Shown here: positions 42,801-54,608 of the stretch, piece after piece
Numbering within the stretch: the first letter of the stretch is position 1
Layout of the letters: every line of letters starts with the position of its first letter
Assembly: GCA_015058945.1 (NCBI GenBank)
Contig: SVBF01000011.1
Span: 76,527 to 140,526, forward strand
Direction: 5' to 3'
DNA from: Erysipelotrichaceae bacterium
GTDB taxonomy: Bacteria; Bacillota_I; Bacilli_A; RFN20; CAG-826
Length of the DNA stretch: 64,000 bases
Position numbers and translations under genes: made by a program
The notes under the pieces: model-generated
Told to the model about the DNA's origin: nothing
What the model saw: only the letters and a program-made list of their open reading frames with translations
The model's database searches: none

Positions 42801-45026
42801 TTAGCGACGTCCGCCGCGGGGACCGCCTTTGTGGTCGCCATGACGGTCGCCGTGTCCATGGGGCTTATCGCCATGGGGACGGGAGGGACGCTCGGGGCGC
42901 TCGACATAGCCTTCGGGCTTATCCTCGAATTCGCGGTGGGACACTTTGACTTTGCCCATCTCGAGGCCGATGACGACGACCTTGAGGGTGTCGCCGACCT
43001 TGACGACGTCGTTGGCGTTATCGACGTAATCCCATTTGAGGCGGGAGACGTGGCAGAGGCCGTCGGTGTCGCCGAAGAGGTTGACGAAGGCGCCATAGTC
43101 CTCGACGCGGGTGACGGTGCCCTCGTAAATCTCACCGATCTGGGCTTCCTTGCAGATGGCGTCGATCATGGCTTTCGCCTTGTCGATCATCTCTTGGTTG
43201 TTATGGTAGATGGTGATGGTGCCGTCTTCCTCGACGTCGATCGCGGCGTTATCGCACTCGCGGATCATGTTTTGGATGGTCTCGCCACCTTTGCCGATGA
43301 CCTCGCGGATCTTGGAGGTGTCGATCTTGAAGGTGAGCATCTTCGGGGCGTACTTGGAGACTTCCTTGCGCGGCTCGGGGATGACTTTGGCGATGGCTTC
43401 GCGGATCTCGGCGCGGGCCTTGTTGGCCTGGGCGAGGGCTTCGGCCAAGACCTCACGGGTGACGCCGTGGATCTTGATGTCCATCTGGAGGGCGGTGAGG
43501 CCCTTCGCGGTGCCGGCGCACTTGAAGTCCATGTCGCCGAAGTGGTCTTCGAGACCCTGGATGTCGGTGAGGATGGTGTAGGGATGCTTGCCATCAAGCG
43601 GGCCGGAGGAGATGAGACCCATGGCGATGCCGGAGACGATGCCCTTGATGGGGACGCCGGCGGCCATGAGCGACATGCAGTTGGCGCAGATGGAGGCTTG
43701 GGAGGAGGAACCGTTGGACTCGACGACGTCGGCGACGCAACGGATGGTGTACGGGAATTCGGATTCGCTCGGCAAGACATAGCTCAAAGCGCGTTCGCCG
43801 AGTTTGCCATGGCCGATCTCACGACGGCCGGGGGCGCCCATCCTGCCGATTTCGCCGACGGAATAAGGCGGGAAGTTGTAGTGATGCATGAAGCGACGCT
43901 CGGTCTCGCCGGTGAGGTTGTCGATGAGCTGTTTGTCGCTTAAGGGGCCGAGGGTCGTGGTGCCGATGACCTGGGTTTGGCCACGGGTGAACATGGCAGA
44001 GCCATGGGCGCGGGGCAAGAGGTCGACTTGGCAATCGAGCGGACGGATCTCGTCGACCTTGCGGCCGTCGGGACGGATCTTCTCGTCGGTGATGAGGCGG
44101 CGGACTTCCGCGGCGACCATCGATTCGAGGATGTCGTTGACCATGAGCATGGACATCTTGTAGTCGTGCTCGTCCTCGTATTCGCGCTTTTCGTAGTCGT
44201 CGAGGATCTCTTTCTTGAGGGCGTCGACGGCGTCTTGGCGCTCGAGCTTATCGAAGATCGAGATGGCCTTGACGAGGCGGGCGCCGATGCGGGATTCGAT
44301 GTCGGCTTTGACCTTCGGATCTGGTGCATAGAGCTGGATCTCGCGCTTTGGCTTGCCGATCTCTTTGATGATCTTCTTCTGGAAGGCGCAGAGTTCCTTG
44401 ATGGCCTCGTGGCCGAACATGATGGCGTCGAGCATCTCTTCTTCGGGGACTTCGGCGGCGCCGGCTTCGACCATCATGATGGCATCGCTGGTACCGGCGA
44501 CGGCGAGGTCGATGTCGGAACGCTCACGCTCTTCCTCGGTCGGGTCGATGATGAGCTTGCCGTCCACCCTGCCGACGTAGACTCCGGCAACCGGGCCATC
44601 GAAGGGGATGTCCGAGGTGCAGAGGGCCAAGGAGGCGCCGAGCATGCCGGTCATCTCGGGGGTATTGTCGCGATCGCAGGACATGACCGTGGCGACGATT
44701 TGGACTTCGTTGCGGAAGCCATCGGCGAATAACGGACGGATCGGGCGATCGATCAGACGCGCGGCGAGGGTCGCGTGTTCCCCTGCCCTGCCTTCGCGGC
44801 GGAGGAAGGAACCCGGGATCTTGCCCACAGCGTAGGATTTTTCTTCGTAGTTGACGGTGAGGGGGAAGAAGTCGCCCTCTTTGGGTTCGTCGGCGCAGCA
44901 GGCGGTGGCTAAGACCACGGTGTCGCCGAAGCGAACGAAGGCCGAGCCGTCGGCCTGTTTTGCGATTTCGCCAAACTCGACGCTGAGCTTGCGTCCGGCG
45001 AATTCGGTTTCAAACACTTTTTTCAT
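42801..45026 (-). CDS. pnp: Polynucleotide phosphorylase
   Basis: A 3'-5' phosphorolytic exoribonuclease of mRNA decay. 741 residues: two RNase PH domains (first with KSYAVGKIPGSFLRREGR; second with HYNFPPYSVGEIGRMGAPGRREIGHG), a KH domain with VIGKGGETIQ near 560, and S1 with EGTVTRVEDYGAFVNLFG near 620. It ends in a His/Gly/Arg-rich tail. The start is ATG 45026 (AAAGAGAG upstream); an earlier in-frame ATG at 45050 is rejected. TTACCC/GGGTAA inverted arms lie in the upstream region (about 45059-45076). Confidence 0.97.
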   Translation of the reverse strand: MKKVFETEFAGRKLSVEFGEIAKQADGSAFVRFGDTVVLATACCADEPKEGDFFPLTVNYEEKSYAVGKIPGSFLRREGRAGEHATLAARLIDRPIRPLFADGFRNEVQIVATVMSCDRDNTPEMTGMLGASLALCTSDIPFDGPVAGVYVGRVDGKLIIDPTEEERERSDIDLAVAGTSDAIMMVEAGAAEVPEEEMLDAIMFGHEAIKELCAFQKKIIKEIGKPKREIQLYAPDPKVKADIESRIGARLVKAISIFDKLERQDAVDALKKEILDDYEKREYEDEHDYKMSMLMVNDILESMVAAEVRRLITDEKIRPDGRKVDEIRPLDCQVDLLPRAHGSAMFTRGQTQVIGTTTLGPLSDKQLIDNLTGETERRFMHHYNFPPYSVGEIGRMGAPGRREIGHGKLGERALSYVLPSESEFPYTIRCVADVVESNGSSSQASICANCMSLMAAGVPIKGIVSGIAMGLISSGPLDGKHPYTILTDIQGLEDHFGDMDFKCAGTAKGLTALQMDIKIHGVTREVLAEALAQANKARAEIREAIAKVIPEPRKEVSKYAPKMLTFKIDTSKIREVIGKGGETIQNMIRECDNAAIDVEEDGTITIYHNNQEMIDKAKAMIDAICKEAQIGEIYEGTVTRVEDYGAFVNLFGDTDGLCHVSRLKWDYVDNANDVVKVGDTLKVVVIGLEMGKVKVSHREFEDKPEGYVERPERPSRPHGDKPHGHGDRHGDHKGGPRGGRR

Positions 45027-45222
45027 TCGTTTCTCTCTTTCTATTTGCAACGGGCATATCTTACCCCTTTAAGGGTAAAGAGAGAAGAGCGAAGTTCGGC
45101 GCACGGAAGTCGCCGTAAAAAGGGTAGCGCATAATAGGGAGGAAGCCAAATTTTTCTTAAAAACGTTCATTTCGTATCATTGCAACGATATTTTTTGCTA
45201 ATGGTCCGAACGAGTCTTACTT

Positions 45223-45307
45223 ATTGGAAAATTCCCGAAAAGGACTGTTTTTCGGATTGGAAAATTCCCGAAAACGGCTGTTTTTCGGATTGGATAATTC
45301 CTGAAGG
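45223..45307 (+). repeat. 33-bp tandem repeats in front of an AAA_14 gene remnant
   Basis: Unit starts at 45223, 45256 and 45289: two full copies and a 19-bp third. Each unit begins ATTGGAAAATTCCCG and ends GTTTTTCGG; arms CCGAAAA and TTTTCGG can pair within a unit. Copies 1 and 2 differ at a few positions in the loop. The period is 11 codons, so a short frame passes through, but it is not judged coding. Confidence 0.9.
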
Positions 45308-45319
45308 TGCCTCTTTAGG

Positions 45320-45517
45320 AAACTAAAAAGAAAGATAGAATCGGACTTATTGCGCTGGATCGATACGGATTATTCCTTGCTTTTTACCGGAAGGAGGCAA
45401 GTAGGCAAAACCTACATTCTTTCCGCCTTCGTCTCAGCTCACTTTCCTAGCCACTGCATCCTGACGATGCAAAATAACGTCGGCTTGGTCAAAACGATTC
45501 TCGCTTCGCGCGATTAA
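45320..45517 (+). pseudogene. Remnant of an AAA_14/DUF4143 ATPase gene
   Basis: 65 open codons: KLKRKIESDLLRWIDTDYS then LLFTGRRQVGKTYILSAF, the N-terminus and Walker A region of AAA_14 ATPases. A stop follows at 45515, where a full gene has ~400-450 codons. There is no ATG or ribosome site in frame, and the C-terminal domains are absent. It stands 12 bp after tandem repeats, the same arrangement as the complete gene at 52332. It is a decayed member of that family. Confidence 0.8.
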
Positions 45518-45611
45518 AAGGACTTTTTTGCTTCGTCTAAGCGCCTATTCCCCCAGCCCAATCGAACGAGGGACCTGCGTTTTCCTCGGGGAAAAAGCCA
45601 TGGATCCATTA

Positions 45612-45642
45612 CGAAAACCCGCGGGCCAAAGGGCACGCGGGT
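45612..45642 (-). terminator. Terminator of the M13 peptidase gene
   Basis: Stem ACCCGCG/CGCGGGT (45617-45642), then TTTTCG on the minus strand. Confidence 0.75.
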
Positions 45643-45663
45643 ATGAAGGCTTTTGGTTGAAGG

Positions 45664-47565
45664 CTACCAGATGTTGACGCGCTTTTCCGGCGGGAGGTAC
45701 ATCTGATCGGTTTCCTTCACGTCGAAGGCCTCGTACCATTCCGGGAAGTTCCGCGGTTGCATGTTCGCGCGCAGTTCCGCGGGGCTATGGACGTCGTTTT
45801 GGAGCAGGTAATTCATGTATTGCTCCTTGGCCTTGCGGCACCAGACTTTGGCCCAGTTGACGAAGAAGGCTTGATAATCCGCGTCGGGGATTTCCTTCAT
45901 GAGCTCGAGGGCGGCCGCCATGCCGCCGTTATCGGCGATGTTCTCGCTGACGACGAGTTTGCCGGAGAGTTTGCCGCCATGGATCTCGATGCCGTCGAAT
46001 TGCTCGATCATGCGCTCGGTCTCCTTTTGGAAGGCGGCGTAGTCCTCGGGGGTCCACCACTGGTTCAGGCAGCCCTTCTCGTCGAACTGGGCGCCGTTGT
46101 TGTCGAAGGCGTGGGAGATCTCGTGGGCGATGACCGCGCCGATGCCGCCGAGGTTTTCCTCCCTCTTTTGCTTGAGGGAATAGAACGGCTTCTGGAGGAT
46201 GGCCGCGGGGAAGGTGATGTCGTTCATCGAGGGGTTATAGCAGGCGTTGACCATGTGGCCGGGCATGCCCCACTCGCTGCGGTCGACGTCCTTGAAAAGC
46301 TCGGAGAAATTGTCCTCTAAGCGCACCGCCATGATCTTGCGGATCGCCGCGAAATAGGAATCCTCGGGATCGACCTTGCACCGCTTATAGATGTCGTGGA
46401 CGAAGTCGGGATAGCCCATCTTGATCTCGATCGTGGAGAGCTTCTCGATGGCTTTGTCCTGGGTGGGTTTGCTCAAGAACCCGCGACGGATGCGCTTCTC
46501 GTAGACGCCGATGATGGATTTGACCAGGGCCACGACGTCCTTCTTGGCCTCTTCTCCGAAATAGGTACGGCCATAATAGACGCCGATCGGCTCACCATAG
46601 TAACGCGAGACGGTGCGGTAGGCGTCCTTCTCCAAGGTCGGGTCCTTGGCGATGCCGAGCATCGCGCGGCGGAAGGTCGACCCGATCGCGCGCAGTTCCA
46701 AGGAGAGGAACGGCGTCGCCTTGAGGAGCGTGCGGACATAGGCCCAATGCTTATAGGCCTCGAAGTTGCCCTCGTTGAAATAGGTGTTGAATTCCTTGAT
46801 CGCGCGAGGGTCATAGACGATGACGCGGTCGAGCTCCTTCTCGCCATAAATGGAGTGAAGCAAGGCCTTGAAGTCAAAGGGCTTCAATAATTCGGCGACC
46901 TCGTCCACCCCCATCGGGTTATGGTTCTTGACGTAATCGGCCCACTCTAACTGCGACTTGACGCACTTGGCGATCGCGGCATCGACCTCAAAGAGGTCCT
47001 TGATGAAAAGGGCTTGCTCCTCCTCGCTTAGCGGGGTGCGCTTCAAGGCCTCTTTGGCCATGCCTTCGTAGACGGCGAGCAATTGCTTGCCGGCGGGATG
47101 TCCCTCCGCGTAATAGGAGGTATCGGGCAAGATGATGTTCGGACCGAGGATAACGAAGCAATGCTTGGTCGCATCGTCCATCGCGGTCTCGACCCCGAAC
47201 TGGAACGGGAGTTCCGCCCCTTCTTCCAAGAGTTCCTTCGCCTGGAGGGAAAGGTCTTTGGGGTCCTTGAGGGCGAGGATGCGGGAAAGCAACGGCAAAA
47301 CGGGCTTAATCCCCTGCTCGTCGCGCGCCTTCGCGTCGATGGCTTTTTCGTAGAGGCGAATGGCGTCGCCCATGGCCTCGACGTCAGTGGCTTTCTCTTT
47401 CTTGGAGAACGCCTCGAAGTCCGCCATCAAAAGCTTCTCGACGCCTTCGTCAAGGTCGGCAAAACCGCCGGTGAGAGGCTTGTCGTCGGGGATCACGGCC
47501 TTCTCGAGCCAATCCCCGTTGACGGCCATGTAGAGGTCGTCTTGTATGCGTGGTTTGTTGTCCAT
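45664..47565 (-). CDS. pepO: M13-family zinc endopeptidase (PepO-like)
   Basis: Cleaves oligopeptides. 633 residues with no signal sequence, so cytosolic as in lactobacterial PepO. The N-terminal domain begins with QDDLYMAVNGDWLEKAVIP, typical of M13_N. The catalytic domain holds AHEISHAFDNNGAQFD (HExxH zinc site) and ENIADNGGM (third ligand and general acid pair E-x3-D). A TATAAT box and AAGGAC precede the ATG at 47565. Confidence 0.93.
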   Translation of the reverse strand: MDNKPRIQDDLYMAVNGDWLEKAVIPDDKPLTGGFADLDEGVEKLLMADFEAFSKKEKATDVEAMGDAIRLYEKAIDAKARDEQGIKPVLPLLSRILALKDPKDLSLQAKELLEEGAELPFQFGVETAMDDATKHCFVILGPNIILPDTSYYAEGHPAGKQLLAVYEGMAKEALKRTPLSEEEQALFIKDLFEVDAAIAKCVKSQLEWADYVKNHNPMGVDEVAELLKPFDFKALLHSIYGEKELDRVIVYDPRAIKEFNTYFNEGNFEAYKHWAYVRTLLKATPFLSLELRAIGSTFRRAMLGIAKDPTLEKDAYRTVSRYYGEPIGVYYGRTYFGEEAKKDVVALVKSIIGVYEKRIRRGFLSKPTQDKAIEKLSTIEIKMGYPDFVHDIYKRCKVDPEDSYFAAIRKIMAVRLEDNFSELFKDVDRSEWGMPGHMVNACYNPSMNDITFPAAILQKPFYSLKQKREENLGGIGAVIAHEISHAFDNNGAQFDEKGCLNQWWTPEDYAAFQKETERMIEQFDGIEIHGGKLSGKLVVSENIADNGGMAAALELMKEIPDADYQAFFVNWAKVWCRKAKEQYMNYLLQNDVHSPAELRANMQPRNFPEWYEAFDVKETDQMYLPPEKRVNIW

Positions 47566-47673
47566 AATGAAGTCCTTTCGTTCGAGTGCGCATTATAACG
47601 CGCGTCGAAAAGAAGAAAAGCCCCGGCGACCGGTGAGGTAGCCGAGGATGCTCCCCCACCGCTTTCTTCACCG

Positions 47674-47701
47674 AAGAAAAAGCCACGGGCGAGCCGTGGC
47701 T
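47674..47701 (-). terminator. Terminator of the leucine-rich-repeat lipoprotein gene
   Basis: Stem AGCCACGG/CCGTGGCT (47681-47701), then TTTTCTTC on the minus strand. Confidence 0.75.
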
Positions 47702-47722
47702 GGTAGGTTTGATGGGGAAGGG

Positions 47723-50700
47723 TTAGGCTTCGACTTTGCTCCACGCCATGCGGAGAGACCAGCTGATGGTGGGCAAGGAACCGACCTTGTTCCCGTAGCA
47801 CACAATCTTCCAGACGTAGCCCCAGGTATCGACGATGACGCAGAGCCTGCCGTTACCGTTTTTGGCTTCGAAGCGGGCTTCGTAGAAGAACGTGTCGCGC
47901 GAACCGGAGGGCTGGTCCAAGTTCCAGTAACCGCCGACGAGGCAATCGCTGTCGAGGAAGCCGTAGCCTTCGCCACCGGTCCAGTTTGAACTGCCCCAGA
48001 AGGTTTCCCAGTCGGCATCGTAGAACACGACCGGCTTAACGGTCGAGTTGTTCAACGGATCGTCGATGATGGAGGGGGAACCCTCGGAGCCCGAGGCACC
48101 CTCTTTGTAGTAGGTCTTGACGCGGTTGTACTGCGGATCGGGTAGGGTCTCGCTCGAGCGGGCCTTGTTCGTCCCGACCAACATGTTATGACGCGAGGTA
48201 GCGTAGGCACTGCCGACCCTGGCTTCTTGGACGTCCCCGCAATACTCACAGGTCTTCTTGCGAAGGCCGCCGTATTTGCCATAGCCGTTGTCGTGGGACG
48301 GATCGCAGTCGAAGTCGGCGTCCTGGGAGGCGAGCTCGGCGGAGCAGGGAGTGACGATCTCCCACTCACCGTAGGAGTGTTCGGCGTGTTTCTCAATGGT
48401 TTCGGTCTCGGTTTCGCCGCAGACGTCGCAGGAGCGGGTCTTTTCGCCGTCATGGTCGCCGCAGACGGGCTCTTCGGTGACTTCCCATTCGGACCAGGTA
48501 TGGACGTGCTCCTCTTGGGTGTAGTTGACGATGGTGTCCTGATAGGTATAGCTATCGGGAACGTAATTGTTGTCGAAGAGGGTACGCCACTGATACCAGT
48601 CGCCGGCGTAATGGACTTCGACCTGACCGTAGAACATGTTCATGAACTCGCGGTGGGCGTGGGTGACGGTCAGCGGGATGTTGATTTTGGTGAGCCGATC
48701 CGCGCGAGCGAAGACGCTTCTGTCGAGGATTTGAACGCTGGCGGGGATAGTGACGGTGGTCTCGGAACCAACGTAATCGATGAGGTGGACCTTATCGTCG
48801 TCATCGCGGTAGGTCACAAAGCCCTCGTCGCTGATCGAGAAGTGGGATTCGCTCTTGGAGGTGACGATGTAGCTGCCGTTGTTGTAGTTGTCCTCGAGTT
48901 TGAGATCGACGGAACCGCTATAGATGATCTCGAGGTTGCCCATACCGGTGAACGGGATGTCCGCTTTCTCAAGGCCATCGGGCAAAACAACGCGGTAAAG
49001 CGGGTTGCTGCTGAGGCAGTACCTACCAAGGTAGGTAACGGTTTCGGGGAGTTCGAGCGAACGCAAAGCGTTATTGTTCAAGGCATAGCTCTCAAGGCGC
49101 TTAAGGCCCTGCGGGAAATGGAAATCGGTGAGGATCTGATTGCCGCGGATGCCGTCATAAGGCAAGACCTCAATGGTTGCGGCGGAAAGGTCGAGGGCGC
49201 GCAATCTGAAGTTATTCTCAATGCAATCCCTGCTCAGGGTCTTGAGTTCGCTGTTGGCGACCAATTTGACGAGTTCCGTGTTATCGATGGCATGTTCCTC
49301 AAGTCTCACGATGCCATCGGGGAGAGTATAGGCACCATCGATCTCGCCGGAGAGAAGGATGAGGCTCTTTTTGTCCTTTGACAAGAGGCTCCCCGCGCTA
49401 TCGGAAGCGTAGACCGGGTTGTCTTCGGAAACGATGAAGGAGGCATGGAGGAAGGCATTAGGCGCGATTTCGACCAATGTGGACGGGAGCCTGATCTTGC
49501 CCTCCGTCTCTTGGGTGAAATTATATTCACCGATGCTCTTGAGGCCCTCGGGGAGGGCGTTGACTTTCAGCGTAGCGCCGCAGAAGGATTCGTTGCCAAT
49601 CGTTTCCAAGCCTTCGGGGAAAGCGGTAAGCTCCAGTTTGTTCGAATAACGGAACATGCTTTGGGGCACGTTCTTGAAGGGCTTGTTGAATATAACTGAG
49701 GTGAGCTCATAGCAGGATTGGAACACTTCGCGGCCGAAGGGTTCGGATCCGCAATTGATCGTCACGCTGGTGAGGGAGCGGCAATAGAAGAAGGCGTCTT
49801 CACCGACTTTCTCGATGCTCGCGGGGATCGTGACGGATTCGATGTGGGTGTCGTAGAAGGCATATTCGCCGATGGTCTTCAGGCCTTCGGGCAAAATGAC
49901 TTCGGTGATGCTGGTGGCATAGAAAGCGCGATCGCCGATGGTGAGAAGGGAATTCGGCAACGTGATCGCGTTGATGTTGCTCAGGTCGTAGAAAGCGCGA
50001 TTGCCGATGGTGATCAATCCTTCGGGAAGGACCACTTTGGTGATGCGATCCGCTCCGTAGAACGCGTTAGCGGCGATGGACTTGACGCCGGCTTTGACGG
50101 TGAAGAAGCCCACATAGTCCTTGTTCACACTATAGAGGATGGCCTTCTCATTGTCGCCGACGGCGAAATAATATCCGTCACCGATCTTTTTGGCCGAGAC
50201 GGCGAGGTCGGTCAAGGCGTTCGCCCCGATGTTGACCGCCGGGTTGTCGATGACGAGTTCGTCCACGTGACGGTCGCCTTTGAAGGCTTCGGAAGGAACC
50301 TTCGTGCAGTATTCGCCGAGGTGGATGGAGGTCAAATAGTTCAGATCCTGCGCGAAGACTTGGATCGGGCCGTTAATGGTGAGACTCTCAAGCGCTTTGA
50401 ATTGGCCGAGATTGGCGGTTCCGGTGGCATTGGGACCGAACGTGAATTCGGTGACGCCAGAGACATAGGAAGCGCTGTACCAGCTGAACGAGGTGCAACC
50501 ACCGATGTAAATCTTGGTGACGGTCGAGGTTAGGATGTGGCTCAAGCAATCGCTGTTGAACCAAACGACGCTATCGGGGATTTCGATCTCGGTGAACTTG
50601 GGGTCACTGATGTAGATGTACGGAACCACGACGCGACAACCATCCTCGACCTTGAAGACGGTGTTCTCCTCGAAGTAATCGGTGTTATCGTCGTCGATGC

Positions 50701-52075
50701 ACATAACGTACGGGTTTTGCGCGTTGCCGAGATAACGAAGGCCATTCTTTTCATTGGTCTTGATTCGATACGGATAGTTGAACGAGTTCCCGGAAGTATA
50801 GGTGCTCAACGAGTTGGGAAGGCTAACTTTGATATCCTTGCTCGTCCTCATGTAGTAGAAGGGGCTGCATCCGATGTGGGTATATCCTTCGGGGATGATC
50901 AATTCAGTGACGTTCTCCATGCCGCGGCAACCGAGATCCGGAAGGGTGGTATAGCCCTCGGGATAAGTGACCGTGTCTCCTTTGCCGACGTAGCCATGGA
51001 CCTCTTTACGGTCATCGCGGACGATGAAGCCACTGTCGGTGATGCGGTAATGGCATTCCGCCATGGAGCTCACGCACACGGTGGCGTAGTAATCGAAGAG
51101 GCTCGGGTCGAGCGAGGGCGCCACGACTTCGAGAATGTGGGAGTTGAACGAAGGGTTCTCACCCTTGATCGAGGTCACGCTCGCGGGGAAGATGACGACG
51201 ATCGCATCGGTGGTGTTGAAGAACTCAGGACCGATTGCGGTGACGGGCTTGCCAAGATAGGTAGTGGGAACCTCGAGGAAATGATCTTCGCTCATCGTGC
51301 CGACGATGGTGTAGGATTCCTCGTCCTCGTTAAGCTCATAGGAGAATTCCTCATAGACGCGGTAATCCGAAGGCATGTTCACCGGATCCGTGAATCTCGG
51401 ATCGAAATGGAAATCGTATTCCGCACCGTCGTATTTGAGGTAGATTTCGGTCATTTCAAAGGAACCGCTCGAGCGATGGAATTCGACGGCGGCGGAGGCG
51501 AGATAGTTCGCATCGCCAACCCTGATGGAGATGTTTTGGGCCTCGTAACGGACGTGGTAGTAGCCCTTCTCCGATGCGACCTTAGTAAAGTCATTAAGAG
51601 CGAAATCGATTTGAGGGAGCTCAACCTCTTCAATAAAGGACTGAAGGCTGATTTCTTCCTCGGTCTTCTCGTATCCATGGTAGTTGGCGCGCTCAACGTA
51701 CTCGTAACGGCTCGCGGTGACGACCTCGCTGGGGGACGTGGGCACCTTGCTATAAGAGAGGTAACTGGCGTACCTGTTGTTGGACGTGAAACGCACATTC
51801 TTACCGACGAAATCAAATGATTCGTAGAGGGGCCCGCTGCTGATGTTGATCCGGCCTTCCTTGAGGTAGATGGCGTTGCCTTTCATCCATTGGTTCCAGA
51901 TCTTCTCGTCGACCACGAAACCTTCCTCGGTTTTCTCGGAGGACGAGATGGTCTTCTCACCGCCACCACCACCGGAGTAGGCGGAAGAGGAACCGCCGCC
52001 GGCGAAATTACACGCCGAAAGCCCCATTGCGGACAAAGCCAGCAATAAAGGCAAGATCTTCTTGCTTTGTTTCAT
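47723..52075 (-). CDS. Giant surface lipoprotein with BspA-type leucine-rich repeats
   Basis: 1450 residues. A lipoprotein signal ends LSAC, with the anchor Cys near 22, followed by a Gly/Ser linker. From ~250 to ~1100 there are many LRR_5/BspA-type repeats (for example VVLPEGLITIGNRAFYDLSN and ITEVILPEGLKTIGEYAFYD). Then come two His/Cys-rich units (HTWSEWEVTEEPVCGDHDGE with CDVCGETE, and later CEYCGDVQEA), which look like small zinc-binding or disulfide-stabilised folds. The end is an aromatic-rich beta module (WETFWGSSNWTGGEGYGF). It probably binds host or food surfaces. GGGGGG precedes the ATG. It is monocistronic. Confidence 0.88.
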   Translation of the reverse strand: MKQSKKILPLLLALSAMGLSACNFAGGGSSSAYSGGGGGEKTISSSEKTEEGFVVDEKIWNQWMKGNAIYLKEGRINISSGPLYESFDFVGKNVRFTSNNRYASYLSYSKVPTSPSEVVTASRYEYVERANYHGYEKTEEEISLQSFIEEVELPQIDFALNDFTKVASEKGYYHVRYEAQNISIRVGDANYLASAAVEFHRSSGSFEMTEIYLKYDGAEYDFHFDPRFTDPVNMPSDYRVYEEFSYELNEDEESYTIVGTMSEDHFLEVPTTYLGKPVTAIGPEFFNTTDAIVVIFPASVTSIKGENPSFNSHILEVVAPSLDPSLFDYYATVCVSSMAECHYRITDSGFIVRDDRKEVHGYVGKGDTVTYPEGYTTLPDLGCRGMENVTELIIPEGYTHIGCSPFYYMRTSKDIKVSLPNSLSTYTSGNSFNYPYRIKTNEKNGLRYLGNAQNPYVMCIDDDNTDYFEENTVFKVEDGCRVVVPYIYISDPKFTEIEIPDSVVWFNSDCLSHILTSTVTKIYIGGCTSFSWYSASYVSGVTEFTFGPNATGTANLGQFKALESLTINGPIQVFAQDLNYLTSIHLGEYCTKVPSEAFKGDRHVDELVIDNPAVNIGANALTDLAVSAKKIGDGYYFAVGDNEKAILYSVNKDYVGFFTVKAGVKSIAANAFYGADRITKVVLPEGLITIGNRAFYDLSNINAITLPNSLLTIGDRAFYATSITEVILPEGLKTIGEYAFYDTHIESVTIPASIEKVGEDAFFYCRSLTSVTINCGSEPFGREVFQSCYELTSVIFNKPFKNVPQSMFRYSNKLELTAFPEGLETIGNESFCGATLKVNALPEGLKSIGEYNFTQETEGKIRLPSTLVEIAPNAFLHASFIVSEDNPVYASDSAGSLLSKDKKSLILLSGEIDGAYTLPDGIVRLEEHAIDNTELVKLVANSELKTLSRDCIENNFRLRALDLSAATIEVLPYDGIRGNQILTDFHFPQGLKRLESYALNNNALRSLELPETVTYLGRYCLSSNPLYRVVLPDGLEKADIPFTGMGNLEIIYSGSVDLKLEDNYNNGSYIVTSKSESHFSISDEGFVTYRDDDDKVHLIDYVGSETTVTIPASVQILDRSVFARADRLTKINIPLTVTHAHREFMNMFYGQVEVHYAGDWYQWRTLFDNNYVPDSYTYQDTIVNYTQEEHVHTWSEWEVTEEPVCGDHDGEKTRSCDVCGETETETIEKHAEHSYGEWEIVTPCSAELASQDADFDCDPSHDNGYGKYGGLRKKTCEYCGDVQEARVGSAYATSRHNMLVGTNKARSSETLPDPQYNRVKTYYKEGASGSEGSPSIIDDPLNNSTVKPVVFYDADWETFWGSSNWTGGEGYGFLDSDCLVGGYWNLDQPSGSRDTFFYEARFEAKNGNGRLCVIVDTWGYVWKIVCYGNKVGSLPTISWSLRMAWSKVEA

Positions 52076-52204
52076 GTTGCCCCCCTTTTTTGATAGATAG
52101 GTCGAATTGGTCGTATCTAAATAGGCTATTTAACTATATCAACACTTTCGTCATCTGCAAAGCGCACTGGCGCAAACGATGGATCCGTCTTGCCGGCTGA
52201 GATT

Positions 52205-52287
52205 ACTTTTGAGTTTGTGCAGTTTTTCGCTATTTTTACTTTTGAGTTTGTGCAGTTTTTCGCTATTTTTACTTTTGAGTTTGTGCA
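52205..52287 (+). repeat. 33-bp tandem repeats in front of the complete AAA_14 gene
   Basis: Unit starts at 52205, 52238 and 52271: two identical full copies and a 17-bp third. Each begins ACTTTTGAGTTTGTGCA and includes GTTTTTCGC. The array ends 10 bp before the -35 box of the ATPase gene. Confidence 0.95.
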
Positions 52288-52296
52288 AGTTCACAC

Positions 52297-52325
52297 TTTA
52301 AAAACGGCTGTTAATCGAATAAAAT
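52297..52325 (+). promoter_or_regulatory. Promoter of the AAA_14 gene, leaderless
   Basis: TTTAAA (52297-52302), 17-nt spacer, TAAAAT (52320-52325), then 6 nt to the ATG at 52332. The start of transcription should fall on the ATG. Confidence 0.55.
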
Positions 52326-52331
52326 TACGTC

Positions 52332-53693
52332 ATGGAAGAAATTAAGGTTTTTAAACGCAAAATCTATGATGCGTTGTTGGAATGGAAGGATTCCCCAATC
52401 CAGAATTCCGCTTTGCTCATCGAGGGCGCCCGCCGCATCGGCAAATCCACGATCGTCGAGGAATTCGCCAAAAACGAATTCGGCGACAACTATCTCATGA
52501 TCGATTTTCGCAAAGCCGATGAGGGGCTGAAAGAACTCTTTAAAAAGATTGGCGACATCGATGTTTTCTTTCAAAAACTGTTCCTATACCAAAACAAGGT
52601 TCTGAAAAGTGGCGGCCTGATCATTTTCGACGAGATCCAGTTCTGCCCCAAAGCCAGGGAATGCATCAAGGATTTCGTCGCCGATGGGAGGTTCCGCTAC
52701 ATCGAGACCGGTTCGCTCATCTCCTTGAAGGAGAATACACAGGGCATCATGATCCCCTCGGAAGAAAGGCGGATCGATATGTATCCCATGGATTTTGAGG
52801 AGTATCTTTGGGCTGCCGAAAGCAATGATTCGTTTTCTCTCATCAAAGGCTTCATCGACAGGAAGGAACCCATCCCCCAAGGAATCCACGAACACTACCT
52901 TGAGGCTTTCCGCTCTTACATGATTCTTGGAGGGATGCCGAAGGTGCTTTCCATTTTCCTGCAGACCTCCTCCTATAAGCTCGCCAACGACGAAAAGCTC
53001 GATATCCTGAAACTCTATCGGGATGACCTCCGCAAGCATGATGACAAACACGGCACCGTCTGCGGTCCCATTTTCGATTCCATCCCGACCCAATTGGCTC
53101 AAGCAAAGAGACGGTTCGTCCTCAGTAGCGTCCCGGGAACCAAACGTTATTATCAAATCGCCAAATCCCTCTCGGATCTGGAGGACTTCAGGATTGTCCA
53201 ACGGATCAATGCCATCTCTTCCTTGGAATCGCCGATTGCCCTACATGCCGAAGAAGACCGCTTCAAACTCTATTTCTGCGATACCGGGCTGCTGTTTTCG
53301 ATGCTCGTCAAAGTCTCGAACACGAAAATGAACTCCACCTTCTTTGACTTCATCGTGGGGAAGAAGGTTTTGAACATGGGCGCCCTTTTCGAATCGATCG
53401 TCGCTCAAGAACTCGCGACAAATGGACATAAGCTTTATTACCATCCCTATATCCTTTTGGACAAAGCGACGGGCAAGAAAAAAGCCTATGAGCTCGACAT
53501 CGTCACCGAAATCGATTTCCGCGTGTTCGTGATTGAGGTGAAGAGTTCCAAAAACTACACCACCTCTTCTCTCGACCACATCAAGGCGAAATACCCCCAA
53601 ATCAAAACGAGCCGATACGTATTTGGCATCAAAAACGCATCATTCGGAGCGGATAAGACCACGTTGCCGGTCTATCTCCTTTCTTTTCTTTAA
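52332..53693 (+). CDS. AAA_14 ATPase with DUF4143 C-terminal nuclease-like domain
   Basis: 453 residues. Walker A EGARRIGKST at 31-40 and Walker B GGLIIFDEIQFCP near 92-104, followed by ETGSLIS (sensor-like) and the winged-helix region. The C-terminal DUF4143 domain has YELDIVTEI and VFVIEVKSSKN near 390-407, which fit the D...E-x-K core of the PD-(D/E)XK fold. Such genes are numerous in gut bacteria and their role is unknown. The start has no ribosome site and lies directly below a promoter and a 33-bp repeat array. All key motifs are intact, unlike the related remnant at 45320. Confidence 0.9.
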   Translation: MEEIKVFKRKIYDALLEWKDSPIQNSALLIEGARRIGKSTIVEEFAKNEFGDNYLMIDFRKADEGLKELFKKIGDIDVFFQKLFLYQNKVLKSGGLIIFDEIQFCPKARECIKDFVADGRFRYIETGSLISLKENTQGIMIPSEERRIDMYPMDFEEYLWAAESNDSFSLIKGFIDRKEPIPQGIHEHYLEAFRSYMILGGMPKVLSIFLQTSSYKLANDEKLDILKLYRDDLRKHDDKHGTVCGPIFDSIPTQLAQAKRRFVLSSVPGTKRYYQIAKSLSDLEDFRIVQRINAISSLESPIALHAEEDRFKLYFCDTGLLFSMLVKVSNTKMNSTFFDFIVGKKVLNMGALFESIVAQELATNGHKLYYHPYILLDKATGKKKAYELDIVTEIDFRVFVIEVKSSKNYTTSSLDHIKAKYPQIKTSRYVFGIKNASFGADKTTLPVYLLSFL

Positions 53694-53731
53694 TTCACTT
53701 TTCGCATAATTTTATTAACGGAGGAACACAC

Positions 53732-54052
53732 ATGTCCGTAAGAGATAAATGGAAGGCCTTTGGCGTGAACACCGGCAAGGCGTTCGCCTCTTTTGGCAAA
53801 TCCATGGCCACGACCGCCAAAGTGGTGGTCGGCAAGCAAGAGCGCGTCGATGAGGAAGGCCACTCCACCCTCAAGAGATCCTGGACCGCGACCGGCAAGG
53901 GTTTTGGGCAAGCGGGAGCCTCTTTAGGCAAGGCCGCCTCCGCCACCGCGAAGAAAGTCGTGGGGAAAGATGAGCCCAACATCATCGACGCCGAGGTGGT
54001 CTCCGAGACCGACGCCGAAGAAGGGCCTACCCCCACCGAGGAAGCCAAGTAA
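53732..54052 (+). CDS. Small amphipathic protein with internal duplication, unknown
   Basis: 106 residues. The segment WKAFGVNTGKAFASFGKSM with TAKVVVGKQE recurs as WTATGKGFGQAGASLGKA with TAKKVVGKDE, so two ~40-residue repeats make up the protein, with an acidic tail. The Gly/Ala/Lys helices look amphipathic and could lie on a membrane. GGAGG precedes the ATG. It is 38 bp after the ATPase gene and may be read from the same transcript. Confidence 0.75.
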   Translation: MSVRDKWKAFGVNTGKAFASFGKSMATTAKVVVGKQERVDEEGHSTLKRSWTATGKGFGQAGASLGKAASATAKKVVGKDEPNIIDAEVVSETDAEEGPTPTEEAK

Positions 54053-54072
54053 TTATATTTATATAAAGTAAC

Positions 54073-54104
54073 GAAAAAGCCACCCGCGAAGGTGGCTTGT
54101 TTTG
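54073..54104. terminator. Bidirectional terminator between the small protein and rpsO
   Basis: 8-bp stem AAGCCACC/GGTGGCTT (54077-54098). The plus side has GTTTT after it, the minus side TTTCG after a run of paired A/T. Confidence 0.8.
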
Positions 54105-54113
54105 GTCTTCCGA

Positions 54114-54380
54114 TTACTTACGGATGCCGAGCTTTTTGATGAGCTCGAGATAACCCTCGGGGTCGTTCTTGTTGAGGTAATCGAGCAAGGAACGGCGCTT
54201 ACCGACGAGGATCAAGAGGGAACGCCTGGCGCCCGCGTCTTGCTGATTGGCCTTGAGGTGGGCGGTGAGGTCCTTGATGCGCTCGGTGAGAAGGGCGATC
54301 TGGACTTCGGTGGAACCGGTGTCCTTCTCGTTCTTGCCGAACTTCTTGACGATGGAAGAGGTCTCTTCTTTGGACAACAT
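54114..54380 (-). CDS. rpsO: 30S ribosomal protein S15
   Basis: 88 residues, MLSKEETSSIVKKFGKNEKD at the start, then the S15 signature GSTEVQIALLTERIKDLTAHL and RRSLLILVGKRRSLLDYL. It binds the 16S central domain. The start is ATG 54380 with AAAGGAG; 48 in-frame codons upstream are not coding. Between 54381 and 54608 I see no gene. Confidence 0.96.
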   Translation of the reverse strand: MLSKEETSSIVKKFGKNEKDTGSTEVQIALLTERIKDLTAHLKANQQDAGARRSLLILVGKRRSLLDYLNKNDPEGYLELIKKLGIRK

Positions 54381-54608
54381 CGTGAATTTCTCCTTTCTTT
54401 TGAACTTAGCTGAAGCAAGGCCGGATGCAGGAGAGGCGTCTCGACTTCGCTTAGCCGCAGGCATAATCATAGGGAAAACGGCGCAGGATGCAACAAAATT
54501 CGTTCTCTTTAGAGAGAAAGGCATTGCATTTCGACATGGAACATGGTTTATTGCGTTGGATTCACCCGTGGTAGTTCGACTACCGCCTAGTGGGAATCCT
54601 TTTTCTTT

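Follow-up and report, generated by a model that had tools for sequence, protein, structure and literature searches.

Private repeat arrays upstream of PDC-S01 ATPase genes as probable operators of the proteins encoded just downstream

The locus described here raises the question of what a perfect tandem repeat does directly in front of an ATPase gene, and whether repeat and gene belong together. Within the window (the whole 64,000-nucleotide stretch of DNA that was analysed), TRF reported a period-33 array at 52203-52287 with 2.6 copies, 100% matches and a score of 170, the highest among the window's 12 TRF rows. A reading made earlier from the sequence only had described two identical 33-bp units, and both TRF and a repeat finder confirmed these; the third copy is present as claimed but measures 19 bp instead of 17 bp, and the array does adjoin a -35-like box, at a distance of 9 bp rather than 10 bp (Table 1). 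The promoter-like site ends 6 bp 5' of the ATG, so that the mRNA of the ATPase may have a short leader or none at all. Core TTTTGAGTTTGTGCA recurs without mismatch at three places of the 1.46-Mb genome, all of them inside this array, while near-matches elsewhere occur at 2 places with one mismatch and at 3 places with two mismatches, as compared to 2 places for a reversed control pattern.

Table 1. Positions of the features discussed, numbered from the first letter of the window.
Feature	Position	Strand	Details and basis
Second 33-bp array	45223-45305	+	2.5 copies; TRF score 138, second-best of the window
AAA_14 gene remnant, N-terminal part only	45320-45568	+	tblastn with family members, E down to 2e-7
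Array unit 1	52203-52235	+	33 bp; TRF and repeat finder; invariant core TACTTTTGAGTTTGTG at 52204-52219
Array unit 2	52236-52268	+	identical to unit 1; core 52237-52252
Array unit 3, partial	52269-52287	+	19 bp; core 52270-52285
Promoter-like site TTTAAA-17-TAAAAT	52297-52325	+	consensus scan, prediction
-35-like TTTAAA	52297-52302	+	consensus scan
-10-like TAAAAT	52320-52325	+	consensus scan
AAA_14/DUF4143 ATPase gene, intact	52332-53693	+	453 aa; PADLOC model PDC-S01
AAA+ ATPase part	52332-53060	+	aa 1-243; alignment and AlphaFold model
Winged-helix-like part, candidate DNA-binding region	53061-53321	+	aa ~244-330; fold match to 2qen and 2fna
PD-(D/E)XK nuclease-like part	53376-53690	+	aa 349-453; alignment and AlphaFold model

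The gene downstream of the array proved to be an intact AAA_14/DUF4143 gene, as proposed, with both domains matched in its product (AAA_14, E=8e-24; DUF4143, E=1e-15). NCBIfam gave no specific match for this protein, and the PADLOC profile PDC-S01 matched it at E=7e-94 and also matched 20/20 aligned members. Across these 20 members, Walker A G37-K38 and Walker B D100-E101 were invariant, as were E354, E387 and E402-x-K404, with D389 nearly so, which bears out the PD-(D/E)XK-like C-terminus of the earlier reading and identifies this part as a putative PD-(D/E)XK nuclease. The AlphaFold model (pLDDT 89, pTM 0.87) predicts an AAA+ core followed by a winged helix, as in ATPases of the SSO1545/PAB2304 type (STAND). 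Structure comparison of aa 1-326 returned 2qen (Z 16.6, 263 aligned, 4.0 Å) and 2fna (Z 14.5), with CED-4/NLR STAND proteins and A. pernix ORC2 (1w5t, Z 11.5) as further fold matches and 2qby matching in the AAA+ part only (Z 10.8), the ORC2 and 2qby matches at 11-14% identity; Foldseek placed Cdc6/Orc1 on origin DNA at rank 1. According to PMC12988326, PDC-S01 is an ATPase fused to PD-(D/E)XK and the fourth commonest defence system across prokaryotes, and most PDCs still await experimental validation. PDC-S01 is a very common antiviral candidate of bacteria and archaea, listed in PADLOC as a single-gene candidate for phage defence.

Scoring the upstream regions of homologues enabled a comparison with other genes. 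The score was the best ungapped direct repeat in the 230 bp upstream of the start, set against 60 dinucleotide shuffles, which puts the floor of p at 0.016, and p<=0.02 was taken as the pass mark; the window gene scored 52, above all 60 of its shuffles and hence at that floor. The first set was drawn from the 146 genomes of the window's GTDB family, with homologues in 88 and at most 11 matches per genome. Here, 77 of the 88 genes passed, with 76 spaced at 32-34 or 65-67 bp, as compared to 17/144 control genes whose intergenic space was 100 bp or longer, and some of the passing controls were divergent genes using the same array, or other ATPases. The second set of 80 genes came from named genomes of many phyla (Lachnospiraceae, Oscillospiraceae, Bacteroidales, Treponema, Coriobacteria, Selenomonas, Succinivibrionaceae, Flexilinea, Verrucomicrobia and Kiritimatiellae) and included archaea (L206, L254); 68 passed, against 24 of 175 controls. 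After pooling and deduplication, a significant upstream direct repeat was present in 151/182 genes (83%), 145 of the 151 at 32-34 bp or double that, while only 14/175 downstream regions (8%) were significant and 2 had the period; the sampled genes are related, so these counts are not independent trials, many of the genomes are metagenome-assembled, and start codons were assigned by rule. Plasmid-borne homologues of isolates mostly carry arrays too, including those of Acinetobacter and Vibrio at ~26-27% identity, the latter with palindromic units at 32 bp. Under the strict test, 12-17% of members were without a significant array.

An array before an AAA_14/DUF4143 gene is not a local curiosity. 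The earlier reading had asked how often homologues carry such repeats, and the answer was 83-88%, as opposed to 12-14% before other genes and 8% downstream; this contrast strongly supports its suggestion that gene plus array form one unit. It is extremely improbable that chance or neutral tandem duplication between genes produced the pattern: the sequences are AT-rich and 8-14% of controls were significant, but the difference between upstream and downstream regions, the fixed period and the footprint described below all argue against it. No account of such arrays turned up in the open-licence papers searched on these families, and the available part of PMC12988326, which deals with PDC-S01, makes no mention of a cis-acting array.

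The anatomy of the arrays was then described with a looser unit finder, which has no null model and found arrays in 165 of the 182 genes. Steps from unit to unit measured 32-34 bp in 359/383 cases (33 bp in 264, 32 bp in 49 and 34 bp in 46), 151 of the 165 arrays had 3-6 copies (three in 97, four in 43), and the last unit lay near the start codon, at a median distance of 45 bp. The unit was frequently bipartite, with a variable box and an A/T stretch followed by GTG, GTGTA or TGCA. In the window clade, which spans three genera with proteins 67-68% identical, 16/16 core positions of TACTTTTGAGTTTGTG were invariant in nine copies, while outside the core this was true for 1/17 positions, and each of the three genera had its last core 60-62 bp before the ATG. 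An invariant core between diverged spacers is what a binding site would look like, and the 16-bp core is a putative one.

Geometry differed between subfamilies of PDC-S01. The subfamily with a GPKWCGK P-loop (L271-L300, L060, L106, L153) carried arrays in 30/31 genes, with a spacing of 23 bp in 26, 24 bp in 1 and 46 bp in 3. The GxRRxGKS subfamily (L301-L330) had few direct repeats (8/28), and inverted repeats in 13/28 genes, as compared to 0/31, 8/50 and 4/50 elsewhere (p<=0.05); more inverted repeats were visible below this threshold, and the dyads often had arms of 8-12 bp and a 17-bp loop, for example ccgcaaaa[17]ttttgcgg. Both subfamilies also match PDC-S01 models. Three subfamilies with three geometries imply that the distance between sites is set by the subfamily and the letters by the individual gene.

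How private the letters are can be seen within the host genome (20 contigs), which has five DUF4143 matches. Two further genes of the same subfamily have upstream arrays of their own, one with four copies around AAAAGTCGCTCGGAATTTTTCA (L001) and the other with three copies of TACCTTGCGTTTTAAG (L002). A search of the genome with two units, those of the window and of L002, found exact matches in their own arrays only, and a genome-wide target of the protein was rejected on these grounds. Unit similarity did not exceed 0.45 in 77 within-genome pairs. It was at background (~0.22) below 50% protein identity and reached 0.33, 0.52 and 0.76 at 60-70, 70-80 and >80% identity, although part of the likeness between near relatives stems from shared descent. 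The overall correlation between units and proteins was weak (0.16), since units diverge fast, yet it lay above all 199 permutations, and a windowed correlation, used to place the specificity region, had a weak peak at aa 181-320 (0.19 for aa 166-300, the best region). Avoidance of cross-talk was rejected as a selective signal because, for a given protein identity, units were as similar between genomes as within them. Transposition of gene plus array within a genome was likewise rejected: in genomes that have at least three members, 34/34 of these were nearer to a relative in another genome than to any in their own. The members are orthologous lineages common to several genomes and not local duplicates.

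These results bear on which protein reads the arrays. Fixed spacing shows only that some protein is the reader, which would suit another host-encoded regulator as well. Such a regulator is nevertheless very unlikely, given that units differ within one genome and that geometry tracks the ATPase subfamily across phyla; with private units and subfamily geometry, a host regulator would need to switch with each ATPase gene. Taken together, the subfamily-set spacing, the footprinted core and the private units make binding of the protein to its own array the best inference, in line with the earlier proposal that the array may be the binding site of the protein.

The array is probably the cognate operator of the downstream gene's own product, which would thereby regulate itself. 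Each PDC-S01 ATPase would read a gene-specific site of ~16 bp, probably via its winged-helix part, with one binding entity per unit and the entities placed side by side along the array. The distance between bound molecules would be fixed by the shape of the subfamily, and the 33 bp seen in the window correspond to about three helical turns. Binding would control the protein's own gene, most likely by repression, and the ATPase-nuclease would be kept low until its ATP state, phage DNA or a phage product, or titration removes it from the array. The array, the spacing rule, the private units, the footprint, the conserved ATPase and nuclease residues and the predicted fold are observed, whereas binding by the protein itself, repression through this binding and a role of induction in defence are inferred.

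The position of the arrays relative to promoters suggests repression: in 67/85 genes with a predicted promoter the array extends beyond the point where the -35 box begins, bearing in mind that promoter predictions are rough in AT-rich DNA. No fixed phase between the -10 box and the last unit was found among the genes with a predicted promoter. The window array itself ends upstream of the -35-like box, where repression would need looping or spreading, or else the array would serve activation; from its position, activation or looping is as plausible as repression. As it lies 5' of the predicted promoter, the window array would be read as DNA rather than RNA.

Alternatively, the array may itself work as part of the effector, namely as a loading, nucleation or cutting site on which the ATPase-nuclease assembles, in the way of Orc1/Cdc6 on origin boxes or Rep on iterons, with autoregulation secondary. 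Cutting at the array, which the earlier reading had also proposed, may occur, and the nuclease residues are conserved. The invariant nuclease residues, a predicted fold that may be related to Orc1/Cdc6 and arrays of 5-6 units that reach far beyond a promoter are all compatible with this, and so is the persistence of orphan arrays without a gene. Two arrays of the window type, each with three units at 33 bp, have no window-type gene beside them (L149, 6370-6452, in genome G110; L150, 6218-6300, in genome G159); no homologue was found in G110 at E<=0.001 (the genome is 94% complete), and both arrays are best read as relics. An effector site is nonetheless unlikely: the last unit lies near the start codon, there is usually an overlap between array and predicted promoter, the site in one subfamily is a lone dyad of the kind seen in ordinary operators, and the window locus is chromosomal.

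The earlier reading had also offered a device for varying expression by repeat number. Tandem repeats near promoters act in this way elsewhere and can vary expression, and over long times copy numbers do drift apart: among pairs with at least 70% protein identity, it was equal in 31/85 and differed by one in 43/85. An expression switch between cells or strains is, however, most improbable here, and this part of the earlier reading is not supported. Copies number mostly 3-4, pairs at 95-99% protein identity had equal numbers in 9/11 cases and differed by one in 2/11, and two plasmid pairs were identical over 230 bp. Moreover, the spacers between units have diverged within many arrays, which hinders slippage.

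With the array taken as an operator of its own gene, several known systems are partly alike. RptR (PMC12255303) has proven repression of the operon of a restriction-modification island through three direct repeats, and it represses its own promoter in front of this defence operon; it differs in being a separate 9-kDa repressor with 9-bp repeats containing a TAGCTA palindrome, while in the window the linked gene is the ATPase-nuclease itself and the spacing is 33 bp. An RptR-type repressor was rejected for the window, where the product is a 453-aa ATPase-nuclease with no RM genes beside it. For Orc1/Cdc6 with its origin boxes and for iteron-type Rep, the gene of a DNA-binding protein adjoins its own repeated boxes, and Orc1/Cdc6 may share the combination of AAA+ and winged helix. 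In contrast to both, PDC-S01 has an extra nuclease-like part and can be present in one genome as several members that differ in their units, and no sign of an origin was seen at the window locus, which is chromosomal. An iteron replicon was rejected because the locus sits in a 197-kb contig between pnp- and rpsO-like genes and there are several members per genome. The activators MalT and IniR are STAND-type ATPases that control promoters; MalT reads repeated boxes and IniR binds the iniBAC promoter, but both have another DNA-binding domain, lack a nuclease and target other genes. The archaeal ATPases PAB2304 (2qen) and SSO1545 (2fna), among the best structural matches for aa 1-326, differ in that their chains end before the nuclease part.

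A private DNA site beside most PDC-S01 members is likely to be the natural ligand of each protein, and as PDC-S01 is common, a clue to its recognition and control matters. Comparison of arrays with proteins offers a way to infer specificity residues, the arrays can serve as a mark for spotting members and relics in raw sequence, and they are ready targets for gel-shift and reporter tests.

Arrays also occur outside PDC-S01, in counts that cover family genes only, without matched controls. ATPases of PDC-S27 (ATPase_2; L331-L360, L025, L027) had significant upstream repeats in 20/32 genes, with 15-bp spacing in one subtype and two dyad-like copies, mostly 63-96 bp apart, in another. An nSTAND-like ATPase family of ~350 aa (L361-L390, L026, L075) had arrays in 25/25, made of 10-bp units that often form doublets repeated every 26-30 bp, with the last unit often abutting the ribosome-binding site. 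It is possible, though as yet a tentative generalisation, that several large orphan AAA+/STAND families suspected in immunity have private repeat operators with a geometry of their own (33 bp, 23 bp, dyads, 15 bp or 10-bp doublets), and that the array acts within the immune mechanism, for example by docking the nuclease until invading DNA releases or titrates it.

Some further observations concern the surroundings of the arrays. The second 33-bp array of the window stands before the AAA_14 remnant (Table 1). On its 197-kb contig in the 1.46-Mb genome, the window locus is flanked by pnp- and rpsO-like genes, which are usually neighbours; the stretch 45000-54550 between them holds the AAA_14 relic, a peptidase, a BspA-like LRR gene, the ATPase and a small gene, and it is a possible insertion hotspot. 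The small gene directly 3' of the ATPase gene (53732-54052) encodes a 106-aa protein without a Pfam match that is internally repeated (GKAFASFGKSMATTAKVVVGK / GKGFGQAGASLGKAASATAKKVVGK). In two other loci (L095 in genome G069, L098 in G140), a lone window-type unit occurs ~200 bp in front of another PDC-S01 gene, directly before that gene's own, different array. Finally, a non-ATPase gene beside a PDC-S01 gene in L096, Fic-like by eye, has an 11-bp tandem repeat, AAATAGTGAAAT, upstream.
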